From assembly GCA_030753015.1 (NCBI GenBank), contig JASMDC010000005.1, positions 62,001 through 126,000 on the forward strand: a stretch of DNA of 64,000 bases. The letters run 5' to 3'. Under the pieces are notes generated by a model. That model was not told the DNA's origin, ran no database searches, and saw only the letters and a list, made by a program, of their open reading frames with translations. Below are positions 1 to 49,280 of the stretch, piece after piece. The translations under genes were made by a program, and so were the position numbers. Each line of letters starts with the position of its first letter. The first letter of the stretch is position 1. The DNA is from Candidatus Undinarchaeales archaeon (GTDB taxonomy: Archaea > SpSt-1190 > JASMDC01).

Positions 1-98
1 TATTTGGGACATTCCAACAGCCTGAGCCGTTCTAAAGGATGGTTTTTTATTTTGATTCCATTTCATCCGGAACACACATTTGAAGGTGGGATGCGGAT

Positions 99-950
99 AT
101 GGAGATGAACGAAGTCAGTGTTATCGGTGCAGGAACGATGGGCCACGGTATCGCCCAGGTCATCGCCCAAGCAGGTTACAACGTAGTTCTCATAGACACA
201 ACCGAGGACTTTGTTCAGGCAGGGATCGGTAGGATCACAAAGAACCTCAAGCGCAGGGTGGACAAGGGGAAGATGGCCCCCGAGAAGATGGACGAGGTCA
301 TGGGCAGGATCAAGGGTTCTGTTGATATCTCGGATGCCTCCGGCTCCCAGCTCGTTGTCGAGGCGGTCGTCGAGAACCCTGCGGTCAAGAAGGAGATTTT
401 TAGCAAGCTCAGCAACGTGACGAACAAGAACACGATCCTGGCGACGAACACCTCCTCCATCCCGATAACCGAGATCGCATCCTCGGCACTCCACCCGGAG
501 AGGGTGGTAGGGATGCACTTCTTCAACCCCGTTCCTGTCATGAAGCTCGTGGAGGTTGTGAGGGGGGAGGCAACTGAGGATTGGGTCGTCGATGAGGTCA
601 TCAAGGTAGTGGAGAATATGAACAAGGGGCCTGTTGAGGTGCTCGACTTCCCCGGATTCATCTCGAACCGGCTTCTCATGCCAATGATCAACGAGGCAGC
701 CTTCGCGCTCATGGAGGGTGCCGCCAAGAAGGAAGCGATCGACAGTGTGATGAAGCTCGGCATGAACCACCCGATGGGACCTCTTGAGCTCGCGGACCTG
801 ATCGGTCTTGATGTCTGCCTGTCCATCATGGAGGTGCTCCAAAATGGCTTCGGTGATCCGAAGTACAGGCCATGTCCCCTCCTGAGGAAGATGGTCGCGG
901 CCGGCTACCTCGGCAGGAAGACGAAGAGAGGGTTCTATGAGTATGAATAG
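99..950 (+). CDS. hbd: 3-hydroxyacyl-CoA (3-hydroxybutyryl-CoA) dehydrogenase
   Basis: Soluble NAD-dependent enzyme that oxidises L-3-hydroxyacyl-CoA to 3-ketoacyl-CoA in beta-oxidation (or the reverse in butyrate metabolism). The 283-residue length is that of the stand-alone Hbd/PaaH family. A Rossmann GAGTMG motif lies at residues 10-15, the ATNTSS segment near 115-120, and the family signature HFFNPVPVMKLVEVV starts at His140, the expected catalytic histidine. The C-terminal helical domain ends in GRKTKRGFYEYE, as is usual for the family. The ATG at 99 follows a good ribosome site (AAGGTGGGATG). An acyl-CoA dehydrogenase follows 32 bases downstream, so the pair is probably co-transcribed. 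Chain-length preference cannot be read from the sequence. Confidence 0.93.
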   Translation: MEMNEVSVIGAGTMGHGIAQVIAQAGYNVVLIDTTEDFVQAGIGRITKNLKRRVDKGKMAPEKMDEVMGRIKGSVDISDASGSQLVVEAVVENPAVKKEIFSKLSNVTNKNTILATNTSSIPITEIASSALHPERVVGMHFFNPVPVMKLVEVVRGEATEDWVVDEVIKVVENMNKGPVEVLDFPGFISNRLLMPMINEAAFALMEGAAKKEAIDSVMKLGMNHPMGPLELADLIGLDVCLSIMEVLQNGFGDPKYRPCPLLRKMVAAGYLGRKTKRGFYEYE

Positions 951-982
951 GTTAGTAGGCTGAATTACGAAAGGTGATGATT

Positions 983-2185
983 ATGAAGGATATCGAAAAG
1001 ACCCTGAGGGCGATGAATTTCTCGAAGGACGAGCTTGAGACATTCGAAATGGTCCTGGAGCTTGCCAAAGACTTTCATGATGAGATAGTGCCAAAGGCGG
1101 CCGGGTTCGAGGAAGAAGGGCTCAAGCTCGTCGATGGCAAGGTCATCATACCAAAGGGGATGGAGGAGATCTACAAGAAGATGGCCGAGTCAGGGATATT
1201 CGGTCTCTTCATAGATGAGAAGTACGGCGGGACCGGCCTGCCCTATCCCTTATACACCGCTGTCGTTGAGATCATCTCGAGAGCATGCCCTTGTATGGGT
1301 GTTGCCCTGGCCGTCCACGGCACCGCCATCGACTCCATCGTCGAGCTCGGCACCCAGACTGCAAAGGACCTGTACCTGCCCAAGATGGCGACCGGCGAAA
1401 TGGTGGGTGCGATAGCCTTCACCGAGGCCAATGCAGGATCGGATATCGGATCGATACGGATGAGCGCGGACCTCCAGGGCGACCACTATCTTCTGAACGG
1501 GTCCAAGCTGTTCATCACTAACGCCGGTATATCCGACGTATACACCATCCTTGCGGTGACGGACAAGGAGAAGGGCAAGAAAGGGCTCTCCGCCTTCGTG
1601 ATCGACATGGGGATCGAGGGCTTCAGTGTGTCGAGGCTGGAGCACAAGCTCGGTCTCACTGCTTCGCCCACCGGCGAGATCGTCCTCGAGAACTACAAGG
1701 TCCCGAAGGAGAACCTGCTCGGTGAGGAGGGCAGGGGCCTGAGCTACGTCCTGAGGGGTCTTTCCGGCGGCAGGATAGAGATCGCGGCACAGGCCGTCGG
1801 GATCGCCGAGGCAGCGCTTCGGGAATCAATCGCTTATACCAAGGAGCGCAAGCAGTTCGGGCAACCCATCTGCAAGTTCCAGGCCATCCAGTTCAAGCTC
1901 GCCGACATGGCGACGAGGATCTCCGCGGCTAGGAAGATGTACCTCCATGCAGCCTTCCTGAAGGACAGGAAGGAGGATTTCTTCACCGAGGCCTCAATGG
2001 CAAAGCTCTTCGCGTCGGAGATGTCGATCTGGGTAACGAATGAGGCAATCCAGATACACGGCGGCTACGGCTACACCAAGGAGTTCGGCGTGGAGAGGCA
2101 CTATAGGGACGCGAAGATCACAACGATATACGAGGGCACCTCGGAGATGCAGAGGATCATCATCTCGAGGGGCGTCCTGTCGTAG
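983..2185 (+). CDS. acyl-CoA dehydrogenase
   Basis: FAD enzyme that introduces the alpha,beta double bond in acyl-CoA and passes electrons to ETF. It shows the family signature AFTEANAGSDIGSIRMSA in the first third and the C-terminal AIQIHGGYGYTKEFGVERHYRDAK block. IYEGTSEMQ close to the C terminus carries the glutamate that acts as catalytic base in short and medium chain enzymes. An in-frame GTG lies at 974, but the AAGGTGAT ribosome site at 971-978 is placed for the ATG at 983, giving 400 residues. It sits behind hbd in the same direction. Substrate could be a short straight or branched acyl-CoA; isovaleryl-CoA is possible because a leucine-type operon lies in the window. Confidence 0.92.
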   Translation: MKDIEKTLRAMNFSKDELETFEMVLELAKDFHDEIVPKAAGFEEEGLKLVDGKVIIPKGMEEIYKKMAESGIFGLFIDEKYGGTGLPYPLYTAVVEIISRACPCMGVALAVHGTAIDSIVELGTQTAKDLYLPKMATGEMVGAIAFTEANAGSDIGSIRMSADLQGDHYLLNGSKLFITNAGISDVYTILAVTDKEKGKKGLSAFVIDMGIEGFSVSRLEHKLGLTASPTGEIVLENYKVPKENLLGEEGRGLSYVLRGLSGGRIEIAAQAVGIAEAALRESIAYTKERKQFGQPICKFQAIQFKLADMATRISAARKMYLHAAFLKDRKEDFFTEASMAKLFASEMSIWVTNEAIQIHGGYGYTKEFGVERHYRDAKITTIYEGTSEMQRIIISRGVLS

Positions 2186-2365
2186 CTATCTAGGAAGTGC
2201 TGCATCAAGGGGAGTGGTAGGTCTTCCCAAACGTGGAACGCACCGATACTCCTTGGAGCGTTAGAGTGCACCCCCCAAGGTCCATCTCGAGGCCATAGGA
2301 CGGGATACAGACAGGTGCTTGGGGAGCTCACTCGATGACGTATCGCGCCCCCGGTTAAGACGCCC

Positions 2366-3313
2366 CTACCGGTCCAGGATCGGAACGGCCGGAATGAGCG
2401 GCTTGTAGATGCCCGCATGCACGATGCTGTACTTGAGGAGGAAGATGCCAACGATCTCCAGCAGGCCCGCAAGCCCGATGACCGTGGGCGACACAGCAGC
2501 CTGCGTGGCATAGAGCCCGATAAGGAAGGGGAGGACCAAGCCCACGGTGATGGCGCCGCCGTCGAATATCTGGGAGAACCGGCCGGACGTGAGGAAGACC
2601 ACGGACTCCCTCGACGCGCTCCCGCGGCCATATTCCCTTCCGAGATAGAAACCAACGAGCACTATGACGCCAAGGATGATCCTTGTCTCGTAGTCGGCCA
2701 GGGGACCGACGTCTATGGCGGTCTCTCCCGTTGCCTGCACGAGTATCATGGTCAGAGCGATCCCGCCCTCGAAGGACAGGATCACGAACAGCGGTATCAG
2801 CAGCTTCGAGTTCCAGAACGAGATCGCCCGTAGCGTGGAGAAGAGGAAGCCCGGATACACCACCACCAGCAGTGCCGACAGGAATGCGAGCGGCGGCGCA
2901 TTGTCCCGGATCGCTGGCCCGAGATCGGGGATCGAACCACCGACGATGGGCAGGAGGGGCGCCACCGAGAGGAACCCGAAGATGATGAAGGCGTTGGCGA
3001 ACATGAAGCCCCGACTGATCCAGGACGACTGGGGCCTGAGCATCGCTCCAATGAACCGCTCCGCCCTCCCCAGGAAGAACAGGTGGGGGAGGCCGTAGCC
3101 GATGAGGAAGGTGAGGAACCCGAGCATCATTCCCCTGCCGAATCCCACGAGATGCGACACCATGAACAGCCCGGGGCCGATGAGCCCGAAGAACATCGCG
3201 ATGTCGAGGAGGAGGCCGCGCGGCCCCATGTCCCCCTTGGCGGACCACTCCTTCTGGAACGTGTAGCCATCCACCGTCGTCTCGAGGAGCTTATTCATCG
3301 GTATTTTCTTCAT
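2366..3313 (-). CDS. NrfD/PsrC-like membrane subunit of molybdopterin oxidoreductase
   Basis: Polytopic membrane protein of 315 residues with about eight hydrophobic segments, starting near residue 35 and ending near 305. It is the last gene of a three-gene set with an FeS subunit and a molybdopterin catalytic subunit, which is the arrangement of DMSO/polysulfide-type reductases. NrfD-family subunits bind quinone and carry electrons between the membrane pool and the FeS protein. The start overlaps the end of the FeS gene by 23 bases and is preceded by GGAGG; an internal ATG at 3298 is possible. Hydrophobicity and context support the call; no short catalytic motif exists in this family to check. 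Confidence 0.8.
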   Translation of the reverse strand: MKKIPMNKLLETTVDGYTFQKEWSAKGDMGPRGLLLDIAMFFGLIGPGLFMVSHLVGFGRGMMLGFLTFLIGYGLPHLFFLGRAERFIGAMLRPQSSWISRGFMFANAFIIFGFLSVAPLLPIVGGSIPDLGPAIRDNAPPLAFLSALLVVVYPGFLFSTLRAISFWNSKLLIPLFVILSFEGGIALTMILVQATGETAIDVGPLADYETRIILGVIVLVGFYLGREYGRGSASRESVVFLTSGRFSQIFDGGAITVGLVLPFLIGLYATQAAVSPTVIGLAGLLEIVGIFLLKYSIVHAGIYKPLIPAVPILDR

Positions 3314-3962
3314 CGTCTCCTTGCCTCCGGGGAAGGTAGTAGACCGAGGGGTCCGTTTCCATCTCGGGCAGCAGCTGGAAGCCGCCCCGCTCCTTGATCA
3401 GTTGCGATACCTTGCTGTCAGGATCGTCTAGATCACCGAACTCCATGGCGTTCGAGATGCACGCAAAGACGCAGAACGGCGTCGCGTCCAGATCGTCACC
3501 GGGTTTCAGGCCGTTGGCCAGGCCCTGATCGACCCTTTCCGCGCAGAAGTCGCACTTGTCGACGACGCCCACGTCGTGCTCGGGATATCTTCGCTGCTCC
3601 CACTTGGACGGTGAATCGAAGTAGGAGCGCTCGACCCCCCTGAACATCCTGGCGTTGTAGGGACATGCCATCATGCAGTACCTGCAGCCGATACAGTCGT
3701 CCTTGTTTATGACGACTATCCCGTCCTCGCGCTGCTCTGTGGCTCCTGAGGGGCAGACCTCGACGCACTGCGGATCCTTGCAGTTCATGCAGCGCTTCGG
3801 GATGTAGAGCCTCGTCACCTTCGGAAAGGTGCCGATCTCCTTCTCCACCACCGTGACCCTCTGGATCCTCGGGCCGAGGGCGTTCTCCACCTTGCAAGCA
3901 ACGGTGCAGGTCTGGCAGCCCGCACATTTCGTCAGGTCGATGACCATGCCCCAGCGGACCAC
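3291..3962 (-). CDS. 4Fe-4S electron-transfer subunit of molybdopterin oxidoreductase
   Basis: DmsB/PsrB/NrfC-like ferredoxin subunit of 223 residues that would wire the catalytic subunit to the membrane subunit. Four cysteine clusters are visible: CAGCQTCTVAC (Cys13 to Cys23), CMNCKDPQCVEVCP, CIGCRYCMMACP and a split CDFC...CVFAC pair, enough for four [4Fe-4S] clusters. The start is a GTG directly after the stop of the catalytic gene with an AGGTGG ribosome site six bases away; an ATG five codons in (3947) is the alternative. No signal peptide is seen, so the complex probably faces the cytoplasm. Confidence 0.92.
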   Translation of the reverse strand: MVRWGMVIDLTKCAGCQTCTVACKVENALGPRIQRVTVVEKEIGTFPKVTRLYIPKRCMNCKDPQCVEVCPSGATEQREDGIVVINKDDCIGCRYCMMACPYNARMFRGVERSYFDSPSKWEQRRYPEHDVGVVDKCDFCAERVDQGLANGLKPGDDLDATPFCVFACISNAMEFGDLDDPDSKVSQLIKERGGFQLLPEMETDPSVYYLPRRQGDDEENTDE

Positions 3963-3963
3963 T

Positions 3964-6681
3964 CTAGTCCACCTTCCTGTAGATCTTTACCTTTACGAGG
4001 TCCGCGGTGCTGCCACCTGCGTCCAGGAGCCCCAGGTCGGGCTTTGTAAGGACGTTGAGGTTGGGGATCCCGAGGTCCTTGGCGAACGGCGTGTTCCAGT
4101 TCCCGAACTGGCCGGTGAACACCACGGTGTCGGGTCTCACCCCTTGACGCGGGACCGCCCTGCCCACGCAGCTCCCGAACGGCGACTCGATGACGATCTT
4201 GTCGCCCTCGGCGATACCGCGTTCGGCTGCCATGGTGCTGTTGATGAGCGCGCCCTTGAATCCGGCAACGTGCTTGGCTGCCTCGGCCATAGCGGGTATG
4301 GCGGCGTTGCTCCCCCAGGCGTACTGCATGCTCCTGGTGTTGACTAGCCACAGGTTGAACTCCGCAGGATCCTTGCCGGCCTTGACGCAGGCCTCGTCCC
4401 ACGGCTTGGAGAAGTCCTCGCATTCCGGCAGGGCCTGGTACTCCTCCAGCTGCGGGTCCCACCAGTGGATGCCCTTGTCGTGCAGGCGCATTTCCAGCTC
4501 CTCGCCGATGATCCGGATCCTTTCCTGGAACGGGAACTCGTACCTCAGCCCCCATCGGACCATCACGGGATGCATGTAGTACCGGATCTGGGGATAGTCC
4601 ACCCCGTAGAAGCCGTGCTCCTTGAACCAATCGAGGCCGTGCTCGTCCTTCCCGTCGCTCAGGATCATGGTCGACGCCTTGCAGAGCCGGTCCCAGAGCT
4701 CCTCCTTCGTGTAGCTCTTCTTGGGATCGAGCTCGTAGTCGTATCCCGAACCCTTGAGCCTGAGGCCCAGGAGCATCCCCGCGTTGATTGCCTCGTTGTA
4801 GAGGTCGAGGATCCCGGTCCTCTCTGCGAGACCGGTGACGAGGTCCGTCATGTCGATGGAATTGACCACGGGCTCCACCGCCGGCTGTCTGAGCGCGAAT
4901 CCGTATGATTTCCAGAACGCCTCGGAGTGGATGGAGGGCCCGAACCGGAAGAGCTGGAGCCCCTCCAGGTCCGTGTGGTCCGGCAGGATTAGGTCCGCGA
5001 AGTGATTGGTCTCGTCCAGTGTGTAGCCGATCGAGACCATGAAGGGTAGCTCCGAAAGACGCTTGAGCACGAGATCGGTGTAGTACATGGATGCCCCCGG
5101 GTTGCCCCGGTAGACCATGAGGACCTCGGGCGGCTTGAACCTGGGCAGCTCCTTCTGGTCCGGGTCCATGGAGAACCAGGCCAGCGGGACGGGACCGAGG
5201 AAGGGCGACCATCCGGTGTTGGCAACGAGGGGGATGAGCTCCGTGTACATGGCCCGGCTCCGGGGTTCAGAGGGCCAGTTCTCCTTGTCGGTGGGATTGA
5301 ACGGGTAGGCCATGAACCCGTCCTTCCCCGGCCAGACGCTTGACCACCTGTCGTGGTGCGGTTTGTTCAACCTCTGGGACGCTCCGACGGTACCTCCTGG
5401 CACCTCGAGCGCGCCGAGGAGCGTGGCAAGAAGCGTCCTCGCCCAGCAGCACTGGTATCCTCCCGGGCCGTTGTTCACGGTCTTGCCCAGGGTGATCGCC
5501 ACCGGCCGGAACGGCAGCTGTTCGCCGGAGATCTCCACGGTCTCGCCCAGACAGGCGGCCTCGACAAGCTCGCGCGCGATCCTTCGTATGGTGTCCACTG
5601 GCAGGTCGCAGATCTCGGCGGCCCACTCGGGAGTGTAGGGCTTCATGTGATCGAGCACCAGCTGGAAGGCCGGTCGACACTCTGCGTCCTCGTATCTCTC
5701 GATCTTGTTGTCGGCCCCGATCTCGATCCCGGACGCCTTGTACGCTCCCTCGAGGGCGTAGCCCTTGATCGTGGGATCGTCGAAGGTCTTGGCGCTCTTG
5801 TCCACGGGATCCCACACCATGGGCTTCTCGCTCTTCTCGTCCCTGAGGTAGTAGCCTCCGGGCCCCACGAGGTACGGGCTGTTCGTCCTCTTCTCGATGA
5901 ACGGTACGTCACAGACCTCACGCCAGTCCATCTCCAGGAGGATCGCGTGGATCATTGCGTACATGAAGGGCGCGTCCGTCTTGGGGCGGATGGGGACCCA
6001 TTCGTCCGATGTCGTTGCGCTGATGGACAGGTGCGGTTCGACCTGGATCCTCTTGCAGCCCCGGTCCCGGGCCCAGGCATGGCGCATGACCCCGGCCACT
6101 CCGCCGCTGGCGTTGGTGTTGTGGCCGAAGGAGAGCACCAGTTTTGTCCTGGGAGTGTCGGATGCCGAGATGAATCCCCGGTGCCAAAGCTCACCGAACA
6201 GGTGCTCGGAGTGATAGCACTTGATCCCCTCGCCCGTTCCGATGGTGAAGTCGATGGCTCCCCACGCGGAGAAGAACGCCGGCATCGTCCCCGCATATGC
6301 CGTGGGCGCGGCGGCCTGGCCCATGATCACCGCAAACTTCGGCATACCGTCCTCGTCGGTGAGGCCATTCTCCCGTATCTTGTTCATCTTCCCCGCCAGC
6401 ATGTCCAGGGCCTCGTCCCAGGATATCTCCTTCCATCCCGGGTCCTCGTCCCTGCCCTTCTTCGGGTTAGTGCGCACCAACGGCGACTGGACACGTCCGG
6501 GGTGGTAGAGCTTCTGGACCAGACCGTAGGCTTTGACGCAGACCCTCCCCTCCGCGGGGCTGATGTCCTTGCAATCCAGGTTGGGCTCGATGCTCCTCAC
6601 TAGGCCGTCCTCGACCACCGCCTTGAACAGGTCGGGGCCGTTGTAGCATTGAAAACAATACGTCGGGAGCTTCTTCTTCAT
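3964..6681 (-). CDS. molybdopterin-dependent oxidoreductase, catalytic subunit (DMSO reductase superfamily)
   Basis: Large Mo/W-bisMGD enzyme of 905 residues. The N terminus has CFQC at residues 9-12 and Cys48 for the FS0 cluster, but the usual third cysteine (C-x3-C) is absent: Pro16 and Asp17 occupy that area and Cys37 is not at a standard spacing. A possible Mo ligand is Cys155 in GIKCYHSEH. The middle has the PGG-type cofactor-binding segments and the C terminus the molydopterin-dinucleotide domain (VNTRSMQYAWG...NSTMAAERGIAEGD). No twin-arginine signal is present, suggesting a cytoplasmic enzyme. The gene is followed by FeS and NrfD-like subunits. The substrate is unknown; thiosulfate/polysulfide-type, acetylene hydratase-like or transhydroxylase-like members share this general look. 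GGAGTGA precedes the ATG. Confidence 0.87.
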   Translation of the reverse strand: MKKKLPTYCFQCYNGPDLFKAVVEDGLVRSIEPNLDCKDISPAEGRVCVKAYGLVQKLYHPGRVQSPLVRTNPKKGRDEDPGWKEISWDEALDMLAGKMNKIRENGLTDEDGMPKFAVIMGQAAAPTAYAGTMPAFFSAWGAIDFTIGTGEGIKCYHSEHLFGELWHRGFISASDTPRTKLVLSFGHNTNASGGVAGVMRHAWARDRGCKRIQVEPHLSISATTSDEWVPIRPKTDAPFMYAMIHAILLEMDWREVCDVPFIEKRTNSPYLVGPGGYYLRDEKSEKPMVWDPVDKSAKTFDDPTIKGYALEGAYKASGIEIGADNKIERYEDAECRPAFQLVLDHMKPYTPEWAAEICDLPVDTIRRIARELVEAACLGETVEISGEQLPFRPVAITLGKTVNNGPGGYQCCWARTLLATLLGALEVPGGTVGASQRLNKPHHDRWSSVWPGKDGFMAYPFNPTDKENWPSEPRSRAMYTELIPLVANTGWSPFLGPVPLAWFSMDPDQKELPRFKPPEVLMVYRGNPGASMYYTDLVLKRLSELPFMVSIGYTLDETNHFADLILPDHTDLEGLQLFRFGPSIHSEAFWKSYGFALRQPAVEPVVNSIDMTDLVTGLAERTGILDLYNEAINAGMLLGLRLKGSGYDYELDPKKSYTKEELWDRLCKASTMILSDGKDEHGLDWFKEHGFYGVDYPQIRYYMHPVMVRWGLRYEFPFQERIRIIGEELEMRLHDKGIHWWDPQLEEYQALPECEDFSKPWDEACVKAGKDPAEFNLWLVNTRSMQYAWGSNAAIPAMAEAAKHVAGFKGALINSTMAAERGIAEGDKIVIESPFGSCVGRAVPRQGVRPDTVVFTGQFGNWNTPFAKDLGIPNLNVLTKPDLGLLDAGGSTADLVKVKIYRKVD

Positions 6682-6709
6682 CGTTGCGTCACTCCATTCC
6701 TATTCTCGA

Positions 6710-7666
6710 TCATAGCCCGTGAAAGGGGCGGGGATTTCGTGCGTACTCGAGGATGTCCGCCATGTAGCCCATGAGACCTACCCTCAGCATCGCCCGGAGC
6801 CATGTGTCCCTCAGGAAGGGCGGTATTTCCTCGGCGGGTTTGCCCGAGCCATCCAGTACCCGGTCTCTTAGCGTCTCCACCAGCTGGTGGAACTCCAGGC
6901 CTTGGCTGAACAGCTCCTTGATATCGTTCCGAGTGTTCTCCACGGTGGTGATGTTCTGCTGGATGAATTTCTGGGGATCCTGCGTGGAGGCCTTCCCGAA
7001 GTGTGGCGTCAGGACCGTCTTGATGTCCAACTCCGAAAGACGTTTGAGTTCTGCAAGAATGAGCTTCGTTTGATAGATTGGGGGGCTTCCTGCCGGTATG
7101 AGAACGTCGGCCAGCTCGGGGTAGTGGAGGCAGAAGGTATCTCCCGTTATCACGGCGCTGCTTTCCTTTTCGTAGAGAGATATGTGATCGGTGGAATGCC
7201 CCGGGCTGTAGAACACCGTCAGTTTCTCCTTGCCGAGGTCGACTATGTCACCGTCGGATACGGGAAGGATCCTCGACCGCTCCACCCCCTCCACCTCGCC
7301 GAACCGGCTGGAGATTTCCGGGCTGAACACCGACTTGCCTCCGCCGGCGATCTTGGCCGGATTGCGGAGGTAGTATGAGCCGCGACCGTGGACCACGACC
7401 CGGGATTCGGGCGCGAGCCGGGCTAGCTCCCCGATGGCCCCTGCGTGGTCGATGTGGGTGTGGGTGGCGATGATATAGTCCAGTTTCCGGACATCGAACT
7501 CCAGCTCTTCGAGCCTGGCGAGCACCGTGGGGAGGGACGAGGGGAAGCCCGGGTCTATCAGGGCGGACCTCTCGCTCCCCTGTATCAGATAGGAGGCGAT
7601 AAGCCTCGGATTGCCGAATGCCTCGGTGTCGATCTGGTGGATGCCGGGTGCGACTTCTTCTGTCAA
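6710..7666 (-). CDS. MBL-fold metallohydrolase
   Basis: Metallo-beta-lactamase fold hydrolase with the metal motif ATHTHIDHAG (HxHxDH) and a later SPGHSTDHISLY histidine, so two metal ions are likely bound. Glyoxalase II, lactonase and thioesterase-like enzymes share the fold and the substrate cannot be told. The longest frame starts at 7723, but a strong GAGGTGAT ribosome site at 7673-7680 lies six bases before a TTG at 7666, giving LTEEVAPGIHQID as the natural N terminus and 318 residues; a TATA-like box upstream agrees. It is the first gene before the molybdopterin oxidoreductase set on the same strand, 28 bases away, which suggests a shared operon and a possible role in that pathway. Confidence 0.82.
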   Translation of the reverse strand: MTEEVAPGIHQIDTEAFGNPRLIASYLIQGSERSALIDPGFPSSLPTVLARLEELEFDVRKLDYIIATHTHIDHAGAIGELARLAPESRVVVHGRGSYYLRNPAKIAGGGKSVFSPEISSRFGEVEGVERSRILPVSDGDIVDLGKEKLTVFYSPGHSTDHISLYEKESSAVITGDTFCLHYPELADVLIPAGSPPIYQTKLILAELKRLSELDIKTVLTPHFGKASTQDPQKFIQQNITTVENTRNDIKELFSQGLEFHQLVETLRDRVLDGSGKPAEEIPPFLRDTWLRAMLRVGLMGYMADILEYARNPRPFHGL

Positions 7667-7723
7667 GGTCCTATCACCTCTGGGACGTATTCGATCCGAG
7701 CCTTCGGGGCAAGAGTAGGCCAT

Positions 7724-7738
7724 GAATGTTATAAAATC
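7724..7738 (-). promoter_or_regulatory. TATA-like box for the MBL/molybdopterin operon
   Basis: The minus strand reads GATTTTATAACATTC here. A start site about 26 bases downstream would leave a leader of about 40 bases that contains the GAGGTGAT site used by the TTG start at 7666. This agrees with the shorter MBL protein. Confidence 0.45.
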
Positions 7739-7820
7739 AATGGATAACCGACTATTTACCCCTTGTCAATTACAATAGGGTCCATCCATAGTGCACTGCA
7801 CAGTAATTAAGTTATAATAG

Positions 7821-7833
7821 TTTGAAGTTCAAA
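7821..7833. promoter_or_regulatory. candidate operator palindrome TTTGAA-G-TTCAAA
   Basis: Perfect 6-1-6 inverted repeat beside the AT-rich GTTATAATAG run in the control region between the MBL operon and the pyrimidine operon. The size fits a dimeric helix-turn-helix regulator site. No regulator gene lies next to it, so the binding protein is unknown. Confidence 0.4.
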
Positions 7834-7957
7834 GCGTCAGCCGGGTTTTTATACAAGTCTGAAGACTAAACTGAACGACCACTGAACCGAAGGAAAAAGG
7901 CAAACATCTGGAACGGCTCAGGATTCTCTCAAGCCCGCAGGATCGCTCAATCCGTCA

Positions 7958-7969
7958 ACAATTTAACGA
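7958..7969 (+). promoter_or_regulatory. TATA-like box for the pyrimidine operon
   Basis: ACAATTTAACGA lies about 30 bases before the chosen ATG of preT at 7997, the distance expected for an archaeal TATA box with a very short leader. Confidence 0.4.
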
Positions 7970-7996
7970 TTTCATGTGGTTGAAGGTTTGATCACA

Positions 7997-9331
7997 ATGG
8001 TTTATTCCGATCATTTCAAAGGGATGGAAAAGGGATTCGACGTCCACCAGGCGGTGGCCGAGGCGAACAGGTGCCTTTTATGCCATGACCCTCCATGCTC
8101 ACGAGGATGTCCCGGAGGAACGGACCCAGGGACGTTCATACGAAAACTGAGGCTGCGCAACATCACCGGCGCGATCCGTACTATCAAGCAGAACAACATC
8201 CTCGGCGGCTCCTGCAGCGTCCTCTGCCCCACGGCACGGCTCTGTGAGGGGGAGTGCTGCGCAACGGATATCGACCGCCCCATCCAGATAGGTCGGATCC
8301 AGCGGTTCCTGGTCGAGCAGTCCTGGATCCAGGATGTCAAGTTCTTCGAGAAGGGCGAGGCCCGCGCAGGCAAGGTCGCTGTCGTCGGCTCCGGACCCGC
8401 GGGGCTGAGCTGTGCCGCAGAGGTCGCCAAGGGGGGATACCAAGTCACCGTGTTCGAATCACGTTCCGAGGTCGGAGGTGTCCTGAGATACGGCGTTCCA
8501 TCCCATAGATTGTCCACCACCATCCTCGAGAACGATCTCCGCTCACTCAGAGAACTGGGGGTGGAGTTCAGGTGCGATTCTCCCGTTCAGGGAGATGGGG
8601 CGGCAGAGGATCTGTTGAATCAGGGGTTCGATGCCGTCTTCCTTGCACCAGGCCTCTGGAAGCCTATTCGATTGAAAGAAGAGGACATCGAGGGGGTCTT
8701 CACGGCGACGGATTTCCTGTCATCCATGCGAGAGAAAAAGCTCGATGGACTAGCACCGTTCTTCTCGGGAAAGGATGTCGCCGTGATAGGCGGAGGATCC
8801 GTGGCGATCGACTGTGTCGAATCGGCACTAGAGCTCGGGGCACGGGACGTCTACCTGGTCTACAGGAGATCGTTCACCCAGATGCCGGCAGAAGAGGATG
8901 AGACGCTTTCGGCCCTGCGGGCCGGGATCCACTTCCTGCTCCTGAACCAGCCCGTCGATTACGTGACGGAGAACGACACCCTCAAGGGTATCAGGCTCGC
9001 AAGGACACAGCTCGGCGAGAAGGACGCTTCGGGCAGGAGGAGGCCGGTGGAAATCCCCGGCTCCGAATGGGTGCTCGCGATCGACGCCGTCATCGAGGCC
9101 ATCGGCTCACGGGCCGCGAACGATTCCCCCCAGTGGTATCCGTCCGTCAAGGTCAACAGCAAGAACCTCGTTGAGGTGGATAGGGAGACCGGTGCGACCT
9201 CCACTAAGGGGATCTTTGCCGGAGGCGATATCATCAACGGGCCCGCTCTCGTCATTGATGCCATCCGGGACGGGAAGGTTGCCGCGACGGCGATCAAAGG
9301 CTACCTGGAAACACTGGAGGTGTCAAAATGA
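7997..9331 (+). CDS. preT: dihydropyrimidine dehydrogenase, NAD(P)-binding FeS subunit PreT
   Basis: Partner of PreA in NAD(P)H-linked reduction of uracil and thymine to the dihydro forms (or the reverse). The N terminus has two FeS-binding stretches, CLLCHDPPCSRGCPGGTDP and CSVLCPTARLCEGEC, as in the N-terminal domain of eukaryotic DPYD and of GltD-like proteins. The FAD Rossmann motif VVGSGPAGLSCAAEV and a second NAD(P) motif VIGGGSVAIDC follow, and GIFAGGDIINGPALVIDAI closes the FAD domain. An in-frame GTG exists at 7976, but AAGGT at 7984-7988 suits the ATG at 7997 (444 residues). It overlaps preA by four bases (ATGA), a sign of translational coupling. Confidence 0.9.
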   Translation: MVYSDHFKGMEKGFDVHQAVAEANRCLLCHDPPCSRGCPGGTDPGTFIRKLRLRNITGAIRTIKQNNILGGSCSVLCPTARLCEGECCATDIDRPIQIGRIQRFLVEQSWIQDVKFFEKGEARAGKVAVVGSGPAGLSCAAEVAKGGYQVTVFESRSEVGGVLRYGVPSHRLSTTILENDLRSLRELGVEFRCDSPVQGDGAAEDLLNQGFDAVFLAPGLWKPIRLKEEDIEGVFTATDFLSSMREKKLDGLAPFFSGKDVAVIGGGSVAIDCVESALELGARDVYLVYRRSFTQMPAEEDETLSALRAGIHFLLLNQPVDYVTENDTLKGIRLARTQLGEKDASGRRRPVEIPGSEWVLAIDAVIEAIGSRAANDSPQWYPSVKVNSKNLVEVDRETGATSTKGIFAGGDIINGPALVIDAIRDGKVAATAIKGYLETLEVSK

Positions 9332-10581
9332 GCGATGGCGTGGACCTGTCCGTGGAGTTCTGCGGACTGAGATTCAAGAACCCTTTCATGCTGTCCTCGT
9401 CTCCGGTGGCGAACAGCGCCGAGATGGTGGGCCGCGCCTTCGATGCCGGATGGGGCGGGGTCGCCTACAAGAGCGTGGTCACCGACAACATCCCCATCAT
9501 CCACCCTTCCCCACGGATGAAGGAATACGACTACGGCGAAAAGAAGCTGGTCGGCCTCCAGAACGTCGAGCAGACCTCGGACAGGGGCCTCGAGGCGAAC
9601 ATGAAGGACATCAGGTATCTCAAGAAGCACTGGCCGGACCACATCATCCTGGTCAGCATCATGGGCTTCTCGAACCAGGAGTGGGCCGATCTAGCGATCG
9701 CCTGCACGGATGCAGGAGCCGATATGCTGGAGCTCAACTTCTCGTGCCCCCACATGACCGTCGAGGGCTCGGGGGCGAAGGTCGGTCAGGTCCAGGAGCT
9801 GGTCCAGAAGTTCACAGAGACCGTGAACGACGTCACCGAGATTCCCCTGGTCGCGAAGATGACGCCCAACATCACCGATATCAACATCCCTGCGCTCTAT
9901 GCCAAGAAAGGCGGTGCCGATGCGATCTCCGCGATCAACACGGTAATGGCGCTCCCAGGGGTCAACATCGACACGTGGGTTCCCGATCCGGACGTCTTCG
10001 GAAAGGGATCGTTGAGCGGCTATTCGGGCCCCGCCGTCAAGCCCATCGGTCTGAGGTTCATCGCCGAGATGGCCCTCAACAAGGACCTCGGTCTTCCCAT
10101 CTCGGGGATGGGAGGCATCGAGACGTGGATCGATGTTCTGGAATACCTGCTGGTCGGCGCGACCACGGTCCAGGTGACCACGGGGATCATCCACTATGGG
10201 TACAGGATCGTCGAGGACATGGAGGAGGGCCTCTCCGATTACATGGTCTCGAAGGACATCAGCAGGGTATCCGATCTTATTGGGAAGGCTCTTCCCAACC
10301 TCCACGAGACCGACAAGTTCGATCTGAGCAGACAGGGGATCGCCGAGTATGATCTTGAGAAGTGCATCGGCTGCGGGCAGTGCTACATCGTGTGTACCGA
10401 TGCCGGCGGGCAGGCCCTGGAGTGGGATGAGGTGAAGAGAAGGCCGAAGCCCATCGAGGACAAGTGCCTGAGCTGCATGGTATGCAAGTTCGTCTGCCCG
10501 GTCGATGGGCTCATCTCGTTCAAGGAGATGCCATCCTCGTGGAAGAGGCGGGAGACCGTTACACTGGGTGACGACATATAA
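9328..10581 (+). CDS. preA: dihydropyrimidine dehydrogenase, catalytic subunit PreA
   Basis: FMN TIM-barrel subunit that reduces the pyrimidine ring, 417 residues. MLELNFSCPHM contains the conserved catalytic cysteine region of the DPD family (Cys in N-x-SCPH). The barrel opens with LRFKNPFMLSSSPVANSAEM and a glycine-rich phosphate site (ISGMGGIETW) lies later. The C terminus carries two ferredoxin motifs, CIGCGQCYIVC and CLSCMVCKFVCP, that connect to PreT. It starts within the stop codon of preT with GGAGGTG upstream. It heads the chain of genes for the rest of the reductive pyrimidine route. Confidence 0.93.
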   Translation: MSDGVDLSVEFCGLRFKNPFMLSSSPVANSAEMVGRAFDAGWGGVAYKSVVTDNIPIIHPSPRMKEYDYGEKKLVGLQNVEQTSDRGLEANMKDIRYLKKHWPDHIILVSIMGFSNQEWADLAIACTDAGADMLELNFSCPHMTVEGSGAKVGQVQELVQKFTETVNDVTEIPLVAKMTPNITDINIPALYAKKGGADAISAINTVMALPGVNIDTWVPDPDVFGKGSLSGYSGPAVKPIGLRFIAEMALNKDLGLPISGMGGIETWIDVLEYLLVGATTVQVTTGIIHYGYRIVEDMEEGLSDYMVSKDISRVSDLIGKALPNLHETDKFDLSRQGIAEYDLEKCIGCGQCYIVCTDAGGQALEWDEVKRRPKPIEDKCLSCMVCKFVCPVDGLISFKEMPSSWKRRETVTLGDDI

Positions 10582-10734
10582 TTATCTAAACAATAAGGAT
10601 AATCCGTATATGCACCCCTGCCCATGCCAGCACGTGGCACGGTTTATTTTCCTCCAGGGCCGGTCAAACCGATACTTTTAAGAAGCTGTATAGATAGGCC
10701 TCGGAAATCAAAATAATGAACGGGGGTCTCGAAA

Positions 10735-11580
10735 ATGGGCAAGATCATAAAGGCTGCAGTGATTCAGGCAAGAGCTGAGAAGGACAAAGAATATATGGTC
10801 AATAAACATATTGACCTTATACGTAAAGCTGGAGAGCAAGGCGTGCAGGTCGTATGTTTGCAGGAGCTGTTCCACGGCCCATATTTTCCCGCAGAGCAGG
10901 ATCCCAAATGGTATGATTATGCCGAGACCATCCCGGGTCCAACGGTCGAGACGATGCAGAAGTTGGCAGCCGAATACAAGATGGTCATCATCGTGCCCAT
11001 CTATGAGAAGACGATCCAGGGAGTGTATTACAACTCGGCGGCCGTGATCGATGCCGACGGAAGCCTTCTTGGTACCTATCGGAAGAACCATATCCCACAG
11101 CTGCCGGGCTTCAATGAGAAGTACTACTTCAAACCGGGGAACCTCGGGTACAAGGTCTTCGACACGGCCTACTGCAAGATCGGCGTCTACATCTGCTACG
11201 ACAGGCATTTCCCGGAGGGTGCCCGGATCCTGGGATTGAATGGTGCAGAGATAGTCTTCAACCCATCGGCGACGATCGAGGGGATATCCAAGTACCTGTG
11301 GGAGCTGGAACAGCCCGCGCACGCCGTCGCCAACGGCTACTTCATAGGCGCGATAAACAGGGTCGGTATCGAAGAGCCCTGGAAGACGGGAAAATTCTAC
11401 GGATGCAGTTACTTCTGTGACCCAAGGGGACAGATCCTAAATAAAGGCTCCGAGGACGAGGACGACATCGTCATCGCGGACCTCGACCTGGGTCTGATAC
11501 TCGAGGTCAGGAACCTCTGGCAGTTCTTCCGGGACAGAAGGCCGGAGACCTACGGAGAGATGGTCGAGCTGCTCCCATAG
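10735..11580 (+). CDS. beta-ureidopropionase (N-carbamoyl amide hydrolase, nitrilase superfamily)
   Basis: Hydrolyses N-carbamoyl-beta-alanine and N-carbamoyl-beta-aminoisobutyrate to the free beta-amino acid, CO2 and ammonia. The nitrilase-superfamily Glu-Lys-Cys triad is visible: CLQELFHGPYF, YRKNHIPQLPGF and GVYICYDRHFPEGARI. The 281-residue length matches beta-ureidopropionase and N-carbamoylputrescine amidase; the position between preA and a dihydropyrimidinase argues for the former. The ATG is preceded by GGGGGT. A 153-base gap with a TTTTAAG run separates it from preA, so it may have its own promoter. Confidence 0.88.
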   Translation: MGKIIKAAVIQARAEKDKEYMVNKHIDLIRKAGEQGVQVVCLQELFHGPYFPAEQDPKWYDYAETIPGPTVETMQKLAAEYKMVIIVPIYEKTIQGVYYNSAAVIDADGSLLGTYRKNHIPQLPGFNEKYYFKPGNLGYKVFDTAYCKIGVYICYDRHFPEGARILGLNGAEIVFNPSATIEGISKYLWELEQPAHAVANGYFIGAINRVGIEEPWKTGKFYGCSYFCDPRGQILNKGSEDEDDIVIADLDLGLILEVRNLWQFFRDRRPETYGEMVELLP

Positions 11581-11599
11581 AGATAAGGAGGTTGATAAA

Positions 11600-12985
11600 A
11601 TGGATCTGATCATAAAGAATGGGACTATAGTCACCGAATCCGATACCTTCAAGGGGGACATCGGTATATCAGATGGCAAGATAACCGTGATTGCCGACAG
11701 TATCTCGGAGGATGCCGAACGGATCATCGATGCGTCCGGAAAGTACATCCTCCCCGGCGGGATCGATGTCCACACGCACATGGAGCTGCCGTTCTGCGGG
11801 ACCACTTCCGCGGATGATTTCTTCACGGGTTCGAAGGCCGCAGCCTTTGGAGGGGTCACGACGCTCATCGACTTCGCCATCCAGGGGAAGGGCACGACCC
11901 TCAAGGATACGATCGATGCGAGGAAGTCCCAGGCCGACCCGAAGGTGTGCATAGATTACTCACTGCATGCAGGGGTGACGGACTGGACCGAGAGGACGAA
12001 GAACGAGATCGCTGAGGTGATCAAATCCGGGATCCCCTCCTTCAAGTTCTTCATGATCTACAAGAACGAAGGCTGGATGGCTGACGACGGCACCCTCTTC
12101 GGTGCGTTGAAGGAGACGGCAAAGTACAACGGCATCGTGGGAGTGCATGCCGAGAACGCCTTCGTCATCGACCGGATAATCGAGGACTTCGTAAAGGAGG
12201 GCAAGACCGAGTGCAAGTACCATCCGTTGAGCAGGCCGAACTTCGTGGAGTCAGAGGCGATCTCGAGAGTGATCAACCTCGCTGAGGCAGCAAAAGGCAA
12301 CCTCTACATATTCCACATGTCCACGAAGGAGGGTCTCAGAGCGGTCAATATCGGCCGAAAGAGGGGGGTCCAAGTCTTTGCCGAGACCGGGCCACATTAC
12401 CTGCTCCTGAACGATGAGAAGTTCAGTAAGCCCGACGGCCATCTCTATGCCACCTGCCCACCCATCAGATCGAAGGAGGATTCCGAGGAGTTATGGAATG
12501 GCTTGACAAGGAACGAGATCCATACCCTCGCGACCGACCACTGTGCCTTCAACAGGGAACAGAAATCCATGTGGGAGGGCAATTTCACCAAGATCCCGTT
12601 CGGCATGCCCGGTATCGAGACGCTCGTCCCGATATCCTACTCGGAAGGGGTTGGGAAAGGGAGGCTCTCCCTGAGTCAGTTCGTCAATCTGATCAGCACG
12701 AGACCAGCCAAGATCTTCGGTCTCTTCCCGAGGAAGGGCGCCGTGAGGATCGGAAGTGATGCCGATCTCGTGATCTTCGATCCTGAGAAGGAGGTCACGG
12801 TCTCTGCCGAGTCGCATCACATGAACATCGACTACTCCCCGTTCGAGGGACTGAAGGTCAAGGGATGGCCCGAGATCACGATACTCAGGGGCCGGATCAT
12901 CTGCGAGAAGGGCGAGTTCAAGGGAGAACGCGGCTATGGGACGTTCATTCCCAGGAAGATCGATCCGCAGTTCCTCAAGGTCTGA
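11600..12985 (+). CDS. dihydropyrimidinase (hydantoinase)
   Basis: Zinc amidohydrolase that opens dihydrouracil and dihydrothymine to the N-carbamoyl beta-amino acids. The 461-residue protein has the metal site GIDVHTHMELPFCGTTSADDF, a carboxylated-lysine candidate in SFKFFMIYKNEG, later histidines in VGVHAENA and YIFHMSTKEG, and the aspartate in LATDHCAFN. A near perfect ribosome site, AAGGAGGTTGAT, lies five bases before the ATG. It is 19 bases behind the ureidopropionase gene, in reverse order of the pathway but clearly one transcription unit. Confidence 0.92.
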   Translation: MDLIIKNGTIVTESDTFKGDIGISDGKITVIADSISEDAERIIDASGKYILPGGIDVHTHMELPFCGTTSADDFFTGSKAAAFGGVTTLIDFAIQGKGTTLKDTIDARKSQADPKVCIDYSLHAGVTDWTERTKNEIAEVIKSGIPSFKFFMIYKNEGWMADDGTLFGALKETAKYNGIVGVHAENAFVIDRIIEDFVKEGKTECKYHPLSRPNFVESEAISRVINLAEAAKGNLYIFHMSTKEGLRAVNIGRKRGVQVFAETGPHYLLLNDEKFSKPDGHLYATCPPIRSKEDSEELWNGLTRNEIHTLATDHCAFNREQKSMWEGNFTKIPFGMPGIETLVPISYSEGVGKGRLSLSQFVNLISTRPAKIFGLFPRKGAVRIGSDADLVIFDPEKEVTVSAESHHMNIDYSPFEGLKVKGWPEITILRGRIICEKGEFKGERGYGTFIPRKIDPQFLKV

Positions 12986-13025
12986 CCCGCATCGTTGAAC
13001 AAGAATACGAGGATGTGATGATAAG

Positions 13026-14378
13026 ATGACAACCGCTGATGACAAGGATATTACGGTCGAGGACGTCCTGAATCCCGATTCGTTCGATGTGGACGAGGTC
13101 AAGGCACTGTGCGAGAAATACATCGCGCCCTGTGTCCACTATTACTATGAGAATCCCGTTCTCATCAGCAAGGGGAACGGGGCGACTCTCTATGATTCGG
13201 ATGGAAAGGAATACATCGACCTCTTTGCCGGTGTGTGCACCATATTATCGGGGCATTGCAATCCGAAGATCACGAACGCCCTGAAAAGGCAGCTGGATCT
13301 GCTGATGCACACAACGACCCTGTACCCCACGGTCCCAATGGTCGCCTACGCGAAGAAACTTGCATCGATCGCTCCCGGGCCATTGAACAAGTGCTTCTTT
13401 GTCAACAGCGGGTCCGAGGCGAACGAAGCGGCCCTCCACCTGATCAAGATGTACAAGGGCTCGCATTTCGTCATGTCGCTGAACGGCTCCTTCCATGGCA
13501 GGACCTTGATGGCCATGAGTCTGACGAACCAGGGTGCGTGGAGACAGAATCTCCCCTATGCAACGGGCGTGCTCGGTGCCCCGCACGCAAACTGTTATCG
13601 ATGCGCGTTCGGCCAGGAATACCCCGGCTGCGATTATGAATGCGCCAGATATGCCGAAAAGATCATCCGATGTCAGACACCCAACCAGATCGCGGGCATG
13701 ATCGTGGAACCGATACAGGGGAACGGGGGGGTCATAACACCACCTCCGGAATACTTCAAGATCCTGTACGAGATCACGAAGAAGTACGATGGTGTGTTCA
13801 TAAGCGACGAGGTCCAGACCGGGTTCGGAAGAACTGGGAAGACCTGGGGGATCGAACATTGGAACGTGACCCCAGATATCATCACCATGGCCAAGGGCAT
13901 GGCCTCGGGATTCCCCATCGGAGGTTTCATTGCTCGGGACGAGATAGCTGATATCCTCAATCCGAAGGACCTGTTCTCGACCTACGGCGGGAACCCGCTC
14001 GCAATGGTCGCAGGGCTTGCCAATATCGAGGTGTTCATGGAGGAGGACTTCCCTGCGAGGGCTGCAAGATTGGGCGCCGTGTACAAGAAAGGTCTGAACG
14101 AGCTGATGGAATCCCACAGCATCATCGGCGACGTACGGGGCAAGGGCCTCATGTTGGGCTTCGAGCTCGTCAAGAGCAAGGACGACAAGACGCCGCTGAC
14201 GGAAGAGACCCCCCGATTCATGGAGATCGCAAAGGACATGGGATTGTTCATCGGAGCCGGTGGTCTGGAGGGCAACGTGGTCAGGATCAAGCCGCCATTG
14301 GTCATGACACCAGAGCAGATAGACCGGTCACTGGAGATCCTGGATTCCGCCCTGAAGAAACTGGAATCGACTCTGTAG
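13026..14378 (+). CDS. class III aminotransferase, probable beta-alanine/beta-aminoisobutyrate transaminase
   Basis: PLP-dependent omega-aminotransferase, 450 residues, of the AGXT2/GabT fold. VFISDEVQTGFGRTGKTWG carries the cofactor-binding aspartate and MAKGMASGFPIGGF the Schiff-base lysine. A CYRCAFGQEYPGCDYEC insertion with four cysteines is shared with several related aminotransferases. Placed at the end of the pyrimidine genes, it most likely converts beta-alanine to malonate semialdehyde and beta-aminoisobutyrate to methylmalonate semialdehyde. A GGATGTGAT ribosome site precedes the ATG. 4-aminobutyrate transaminase is the main alternative. Confidence 0.86.
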   Translation: MTTADDKDITVEDVLNPDSFDVDEVKALCEKYIAPCVHYYYENPVLISKGNGATLYDSDGKEYIDLFAGVCTILSGHCNPKITNALKRQLDLLMHTTTLYPTVPMVAYAKKLASIAPGPLNKCFFVNSGSEANEAALHLIKMYKGSHFVMSLNGSFHGRTLMAMSLTNQGAWRQNLPYATGVLGAPHANCYRCAFGQEYPGCDYECARYAEKIIRCQTPNQIAGMIVEPIQGNGGVITPPPEYFKILYEITKKYDGVFISDEVQTGFGRTGKTWGIEHWNVTPDIITMAKGMASGFPIGGFIARDEIADILNPKDLFSTYGGNPLAMVAGLANIEVFMEEDFPARAARLGAVYKKGLNELMESHSIIGDVRGKGLMLGFELVKSKDDKTPLTEETPRFMEIAKDMGLFIGAGGLEGNVVRIKPPLVMTPEQIDRSLEILDSALKKLESTL

Positions 14379-14396
14379 CGGCGAGGTCATCCCCAT

Positions 14397-14417
14397 CCCC
14401 CCGGGTGGTCCGGGGGG
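14397..14417. terminator. GC hairpin after the pyrimidine operon
   Basis: CCCCCCGG at 14397-14404 pairs perfectly with CCGGGGGG at 14410-14417 around a GTGGT loop. It lies 19 bases after the aminotransferase stop in a convergent gap. There is no long T run after it, so a transcript-end or stability role is an inference. Confidence 0.45.
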
Positions 14418-14495
14418 AGGATCCTTTCCTGAGCGCAGTCAGTTTCTAGGAACACCGCTCCAGGATGTCCGCGAATCCTCGGATGATGGACACCC

Positions 14496-14514
14496 CCATC
14501 CCACGAGGGGATGG
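14496..14514. terminator. second hairpin in the convergent gap
   Basis: CCATCCC at 14496-14502 pairs with GGGATGG at 14508-14514 across ACGAG. It lies downstream of both convergent operons and may mark the 3' end of the minus-strand semialdehyde dehydrogenase transcript. No T run follows on either strand. Confidence 0.35.
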
Positions 14515-14565
14515 AGGCGAGCACGATCCTTGTGTGACGCGATCAGATCTCATACAGTCCTTCGG

Positions 14566-49271: not shown

Positions 49272-49280
49272 GGTCCTCTC

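Follow-up and report, generated by a model that had tools for sequence, protein, structure and literature searches.

The 64,000-nucleotide window analysed here (contig JASMDC010000005.1 of a Candidatus Undinarchaeales archaeon; all positions below are in window numbering) carries an operon of four genes, all on the minus strand. A metallo-β-lactamase (MBL)-fold hydrolase gene (7723-6710) is followed by genes for a molybdopterin enzyme (6681-3964), an iron-sulfur subunit (3962-3291) and an NrfD-type membrane protein (3313-2366). This operon, MBL-padB-padC-padD, likely encodes a PadBCD-type arylacetyl-coenzyme A (CoA):acceptor oxidoreductase together with its own thioesterase. The molybdopterin subunit lacks one cysteine of its N-terminal cluster motif; this is a family-wide aspartate in a ligand place and not an oddity of the window copy. 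In the known systems, PadJ, PadBCD and PadEFGHI form the route from phenylacetate to benzoyl-CoA, in which PadBCD carries out the α-oxidation of phenylacetyl-CoA (PMC5109826). Phenylglyoxylyl-CoA is an intermediate and its hydrolysis a step of this pathway (PMC9765128).

The molybdopterin subunit groups with PadB

The catalytic subunit, 905 residues from an ATG start in the open reading frame (ORF) listing, bears the domains of the dimethyl sulfoxide (DMSO) reductase superfamily (PF00384, 67.9 bits, cut-off 24; PF01568, 41.8 bits, cut-off 26.8). The window protein aligned with that of genome G334 served as the query against the genome_contigs collection; one scan returned 291 relatives, and the best 79 loci were kept. 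The alignment and tree comprise 78 rows, namely 72 of these loci, the window protein and five other rows; L085, L099, L100, L102, L092, L096 and L108 were dropped as fragments, for a frameshift or for want of an ORF. The tree is a quick LG+G4 one with Shimodaira-Hasegawa-like approximate likelihood ratio test (SH-aLRT) support, no bootstrap, and long-branch warnings, which concern among others L103 and the clade as well as the pair L039 and L075. In it, the window protein falls within a clade of 63 rows (SH-aLRT 100) together with PadB of the Aromatoleum and Azoarcus pad clusters, and it is about 51% identical over its full length to the proteins of these loci. In one of them, Aromatoleum toluclasticum L055, the PadB homologue is followed by PadC, PadD, pad genes and a phenylacetate-CoA ligase (704.1 bits, cut-off 646.3), and NCBIfam equivalog cut-offs are exceeded for PadE (338.8/300 bits), PadG (791.4/700), PadH (742.1/475) and PadI (873.9/700). 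Across the clade, PadC neighbours PadB at 56 of 62 loci, PadG, PadH and PadI together at 12, and a PadJ-type ligase at 16, although several of these loci are too short for neighbours to be visible.

Within the clade, the window protein pairs with one from a Kiritimatiellia metagenome-assembled genome (MAG), L038 (66% identity, support 100). This bacterial MAG has the same MBL-PadB-PadC-PadD operon, its MBL protein being 50% identical to that of the window. The other deep branches are proteins of Hadesarchaea, Bathyarchaeota and Nitrososphaerales, with 58 proteobacterial rows above them, and the sister row of the whole clade is the Dehalococcoidia protein L103. Such proteins are rare: matches above 1000 bits occur in two of 394 sampled genomes, the window's own included, and one of 28 genomes in the phylum of G334 matches at 1e-80. 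Gene surroundings vary. In Hadesarchaea (L039, L029) and Bathyarchaeota (L075), genes for acyl-CoA synthetase α and β adjoin PadB, the α subunit scoring 347.3 of 567.15 bits with an acetate-CoA ligase model, and in L029 an AllG gene (oxamate carbamoyltransferase subunit, PF06545, 317.5 bits) lies at 100-1341, near the PadB operon. The fetched stretches of 23 of the 62 loci also hold an FdhD-type gene, one of which (L055, 8081-8950) was checked by Pfam; this hints that PadB may need cofactor sulfuration as formate dehydrogenases do. The window's host has a single FdhD, elsewhere in its genome.

The two genes directly downstream of padB are those expected of its partners. The iron-sulfur subunit (3291-3962, 223 residues, GTG start) matches Fer4 families, shows four cluster motifs by eye and is 50% identical to Aromatoleum PadC. 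The membrane anchor (2366-3313, 315 residues; PF03916, 61.9 bits, cut-off 25.8) is strongly hydrophobic, with 10 overlapping candidate segments, and is assigned to PadD by family alone. The window system thus shares with PadBCD of Thauera aromatica, Azoarcus evansii and Aromatoleum aromaticum the C-x2-C-x4-D...C pattern, the molybdenum-cysteine pattern, the order PadB-PadC-PadD and the lack of a twin-arginine translocation (Tat) signal, the comparison set being the Aromatoleum and Azoarcus loci, with the Thauera sequence outside it. It differs in having no padEFGHI or padJ beside it, in the MBL gene that leads the operon, in a strongly diverged PadD, in its archaeal host and in its deep branch.

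Could the enzyme instead be a reductase or hydroxyl-transfer enzyme of the acetylene hydratase, transhydroxylase, PsrA/PhsA or ArrA type, acting on an organic or sulfur substrate? The nearest solved sequences and folds are indeed ArrA and PsrA, then formate dehydrogenases and acetylene hydratase. The predicted PadB model, built from 44 sequences (mean predicted local distance difference test (pLDDT) 89.9, predicted template modelling score (pTM) 0.92), matches ArrA with Z 31.0 (706 residues, root-mean-square deviation (rmsd) 3.2), PsrA with Z 31.0 and acetylene hydratase with Z 29.7, and it resembles formate dehydrogenases too; phmmer gives 69 bits to 2vpw (thiosulfate/polysulfide reductase) and 52.1 bits to acetylene hydratase. 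The fold shared by this predicted model is, however, no sign of function, and identity to the ArrA, PsrA and acetylene hydratase structures is 18-22%. PhsA gave the highest NCBIfam score, but at 149.9 of 694 bits, and ArrA at 123.6 of 1600, both are far under their cut-offs, and we rejected both identities. ArrA, PsrA and PhsA are Tat-exported, unlike the present clade, which has no Tat-like signal. With pad-cluster homologues at about 51% identity as well, we consider an enzyme of this kind very unlikely.

The first-pass annotation had pictured an unusual quinone-linked reductase or oxidase with an unassigned organic or sulfur substrate. From the missing Tat signal, the NrfD anchor and the PadB clade, we retain an oxidoreductase on the cytoplasmic side that acts on an organic compound and is probably linked to quinone; a sulfur substrate finds no support. 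Nor is the substrate without any assignment, since the pad-cluster homologues have one in the literature; at their level of identity, they go part of the way towards the close characterised homologue that the annotation had named as grounds for revising its view.

An aspartate in place of the third cluster cysteine

The N-terminus of the window protein, MKKKLPTYCFQCYNGPDLFK, contains C9, C12, D17 and C48. The motif C9-x2-C12-x4-D17 (CFQCYNGPD) is encoded at 6631-6657 and Cys48, at the fourth ligand position, at 6538-6540. Both the ORF and the alignment bear out the initial observation of CFQC and Cys48 with Asp17 nearby and no C-x3-C cysteine. This is no peculiarity of one enzyme: columns 9, 12, 17, 48 and 155 read C, C, D, C and C in all 63 clade rows. 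Cys48 is a cysteine in 78 of 78 rows, as is Cys155 (codon 6217-6219, in GIKCYH), the proposed molybdenum ligand, which agrees with its earlier placing. The clade rows were first chosen by their GPD motif, so that the aspartate count is circular taken alone; D17 nevertheless stands as a clade trait because the tree recovers exactly the same 63 rows, with none of the 15 others inside. The N-termini of L092, L096 and L102, read outside the alignment, have GPD too.

Among the 15 outside rows, the third-place cysteine lies in column 16 in 13 and in column 17 in two (L103 and Sporomusa L012). The sister row L103 reads CWFCVMGPC, that is C-x2-C-x4-C at the window's cluster columns, with GPC where the clade has GPD. 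A cysteine at this column in the sister, together with the clade-wide D17, indicates that the aspartate replaces the third cysteine, and this residue pattern makes it most likely that D17 ligates the cluster in PadB-type enzymes. A third cysteine elsewhere, which the first-pass annotation had allowed for, was looked for and rejected: column 37 is a cysteine in only two of the 63 rows.

Aspartate ligation has a solved precedent. In nitrite oxidoreductase, the FS0 cluster is held by three cysteines and Asp71 (PMC8387239). Its NxrA subunit (PDB 7b04) belongs, like the window protein, to the DMSO reductase superfamily and has the same three-cysteine, one-aspartate composition, but the aspartate occupies another ligand place (C67, D71, C75, C115), the reaction is different, and identity to the window protein is 17%. 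Ethylbenzene dehydrogenase and nitrate reductase have a histidine at the cluster instead of an aspartate (PMC8840923). The literature searched, which left subscription papers largely outside, gave no statement of an aspartate ligand in PadB. Other relatives carry aspartate elsewhere in the motif: at the first ligand place in the f4 archaea L015 and L019 (D-x2-C-x3-C) and likewise L016, and at the second in the Archaeoglobi L114 and L115 (C-x2-D-x3-C).

Apart from the enzyme's identity, one may ask whether the aspartate binds iron at all, or whether the site holds a [3Fe-4S] cluster on three cysteines, or no cluster, as in the transhydroxylase large subunit. Asp-ligated cubanes can lose an iron. 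The identity of C9, C12, D17 and C48 in all 63 rows, the cysteine at the aspartate column of the sister row, the aspartates at the first or second place in other relatives, and the true aspartate ligand of nitrite oxidoreductase (PMC8387239) all speak against a non-ligating aspartate, which we regard as improbable.

The absence of a Tat signal was confirmed. The open frame of 911 residues is only six longer than the 905-residue ORF, which leaves no upstream room for such a signal, and in the first 60 residues, counted from starts that a script chose, no row of the 63-row clade shows a twin-arginine-like motif. The only other host match to the molybdopterin subunit (L002/L036) has an RR-type N-terminus, and thus a relative that probably carries a Tat signal is encoded in the host genome too. 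NrfD-like and iron-sulfur-like ORFs accompany it by eye, and its best score is with TtrA, below the cut-off (587.8 of 1750 bits).

The MBL-fold protein as a probable thioesterase

That an MBL hydrolase begins the operon, as first noted, is correct: the gene at 6710-7723 matches PF00753 with 101.3 bits. Its predicted fold (mean pLDDT 80.1, built from only 4 sequences) has PqsE as the first-ranking Foldseek match (2q0j_A; E 8.4e-16, template modelling scores 0.68/0.74, rmsd 5.8, 20% identity), with archaeal ST1585 third at a near-equal E-value and B3 β-lactamases after it. Residues H88, H90, H93, H176, D195 and H241 are identical in the four aligned proteins and D92 in three of them; these are positions that we take to be metal ligands. 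The protein therefore has both the fold and the metal-binding residues of an MBL-fold thioesterase. PqsE is a 2-aminobenzoylacetyl-CoA thioesterase (PMC6204780), and a thioesterase is listed for phenylglyoxylyl-CoA (PMC13416013). The likeness to PqsE is that of the best fold match; the difference is that PqsE serves quorum sensing in Pseudomonas. On the strength of the model, we propose that the MBL protein is a probable arylglyoxylyl-CoA thioesterase.

Besides the window, an MBL gene accompanies PadB at three of 62 clade loci, adjacent in L038 and L039, as in the window, and about 7 kb away in L050. A second kind of thioesterase gene, of the FlK type, was found by similarity to the L041 protein at 20 of the 62; the two checked by Pfam match PF22636 with 107.4 and 108.6 bits. 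In 11 measured cases this gene has the orientation of PadB and precedes it by 17-206 bases; the others are farther away or on the opposite strand.

Substrate, neighbouring genes and host

Several results weigh against an arylacetyl-CoA-oxidising PadBCD. Within the operon and the clade, Aromatoleum PadD gave no tblastn match to the window at 1e-12, no model named PadB came up in the NCBIfam scans, and the window protein branches below both proteobacterial groups. The second of these groups (20 clade rows) has no PadE-J match, so that not every clade member is a proven PadB. An MBL or FlK-type gene was found at only 23 of 62 loci (a raw count, some loci being short) and neither at 39; most Aromatoleum loci and Bathyarchaeota L075 have no thioesterase of either kind. 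Over its first 20 kb, the window contains no match to PadE, PadG, PadH, PadI or PadJ. As for the host, no PaaK exceeds its cut-off (best 28.3 of 646.3 bits), and the complete Pad pathway was not found, host PadG scores being below cut-off as well. HGD-D/class I benzoyl-CoA reductase (PF06050) has no match in a search that did not extend to class II, the best ring hydrolase (TIGR03200) reaches 72.3 of 464.45 bits, and four matches resembling 4-hydroxybenzoyl-CoA reductase are all below cut-off, the one scanned scoring best as XdhA. Finally, the window neighbours are pyrimidine and β-oxidation genes, the latter for acyl-CoA dehydrogenase, 3-hydroxybutyryl-CoA dehydrogenase and thiolases.

These points leave room for the same chemistry, quinone-linked acyl-CoA α-oxidation, with some other CoA thioester, non-aryl for instance, that would fit such surroundings. 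The β-oxidation genes just named, PreT/PreA, a host in which neither class I benzoyl-CoA reductase nor a ring hydrolase exceeds its cut-off, and the 20-row group all favour it. Against this, the pyrimidine genes are transcribed divergently, and Kiritimatiellia L038 has the four-gene operon with no pyrimidine genes recognised by eye among its unscanned ORFs. Moreover, the fold closest to that of the MBL protein belongs to an aryl-acyl-CoA thioesterase, and in L050, an archaeon, PadB is part of an aromatic cluster. We therefore hold a non-aryl substrate to be the less probable choice, though a more serious contender than a reductase, and keep arylacetyl-CoA as the likely one.

The L050 locus, from a deep-branching Nitrososphaerales MAG (23-15758), has PadB amid NrfD-type, MBL and PorA/PorB-type genes. 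It also encodes benzoyl-CoA reductase A-, B- and C-like and 4-hydroxybenzoyl-CoA reductase-like subunits, all below equivalog cut-offs, and passes the model of the benzoyl-CoA reductase activase domain. This row of genes is a candidate archaeal hydroxyphenylacetate route.

Upstream of the operon, window 7976-16017 is a probable reductive pyrimidine degradation cluster, with PreT-like, PreA (513.5 of 335 bits), carbon-nitrogen hydrolase, aminotransferase, dihydropyrimidinase (529.3 of 393.25 bits) and CoA-acylating semialdehyde dehydrogenase (521.9 of 448.5 bits) genes. An N-heterocyclic substrate, suggested by the PreT/PreA, dihydropyrimidinase and amidase neighbours, was dropped as the leading interpretation because of the divergent transcription and the operon in L038. 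Farther along, 46317-52982 encodes two large cysteine-rich proteins of 984 and 1233 residues, probably secreted, with repeated short cysteine modules.

The host genome measures 3.85 Mb in 117 contigs (completeness 98.92, contamination 5.01). Ten genomes of its phylum were searched, and the other nine are 0.6-1.1 Mb; with this size mismatch and the contamination, a mixed bin or a very different lineage is possible. The window's contig does encode an archaeal-type phosphorylase (TIGR02645, 503.9 bits, cut-off 434.6). A source of arylacetyl-CoA would be the host IorA (725.9 bits, cut-off 650.9). For two proteins of the PorA type, the top-scoring model is pyruvate synthase (552.2 and 497.2, cut-off 550), ahead of PadG (342.6 and 331.3 of 700 bits). 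Their two gene sets might stand in for PadEFGHI, and one of the proteins could conceivably decarboxylate arylglyoxylate to aroyl-CoA, a possibility that nothing here supports. We dropped a reduction of benzoyl-CoA by the host for want of an HGD-D match and of a ring hydrolase above cut-off. With PaaK, class I benzoyl-CoA reductase and ring hydrolase all missing at their cut-offs, an aromatic acid may be where the route ends.

Discussion

Taken together, the window operon is probably an archaeal PadBCD-type variant with a probable thioesterase partner. In the mechanism that we propose, indolepyruvate:ferredoxin oxidoreductase would supply the arylacetyl-CoA, be it phenylacetyl-CoA or a hydroxylated or indole analogue, which would bind at the molybdenum-bis-pterin site ligated by Cys155. 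There, two successive 2-electron oxidations of its α-CH2 group would give arylglyoxylyl-CoA, the oxygen coming from water. Quinone would receive the electrons by way of the Cys3Asp cluster (C9, C12, D17, C48), then the clusters of PadC and the NrfD anchor, while the MBL protein would hydrolyse the thioester to arylglyoxylate and so pull the reaction forward.

Phenylacetyl-CoA:acceptor oxidoreductase candidates have been proposed from genomes of archaea and Dehalococcoidia (PMC3654217, PMC10581246, PMC4959651). The archaeal ones (PMC3654217, PMC10581246) narrow the novelty of the present system; compared by description, the candidates come with no mention of an aspartate motif or an MBL partner in the available text of the three papers. 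The degradation of aromatic amino acids in Ferroglobus, as cited in PMC6737245, narrows it further.

More tentatively, as a reading that we hold less likely than not, we suggest that the host ferments aromatic amino acids to arylacetyl-CoA, which quinone-linked PadBCD and the MBL protein then turn into arylglyoxylate or an aromatic acid without reducing the ring, the Cys3Asp cluster being one of three replacements. If so, this would be a respiratory extension of peptide fermentation, which we did not find described in the literature searched, and the three cysteine-to-aspartate replacements at different ligand places would form a natural series tuning the cluster next to molybdenum. The operon suggests that an archaeon without ring-reduction genes over cut-off has a quinone-linked module for aromatic α-oxidation complete with a thioesterase, and it gives an unassigned MBL gene a concrete role. 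For the family, an apparent defect becomes a shared trait: PadB-type enzymes probably bind their proximal cluster through an aspartate, which can be tested in Aromatoleum or Thauera.

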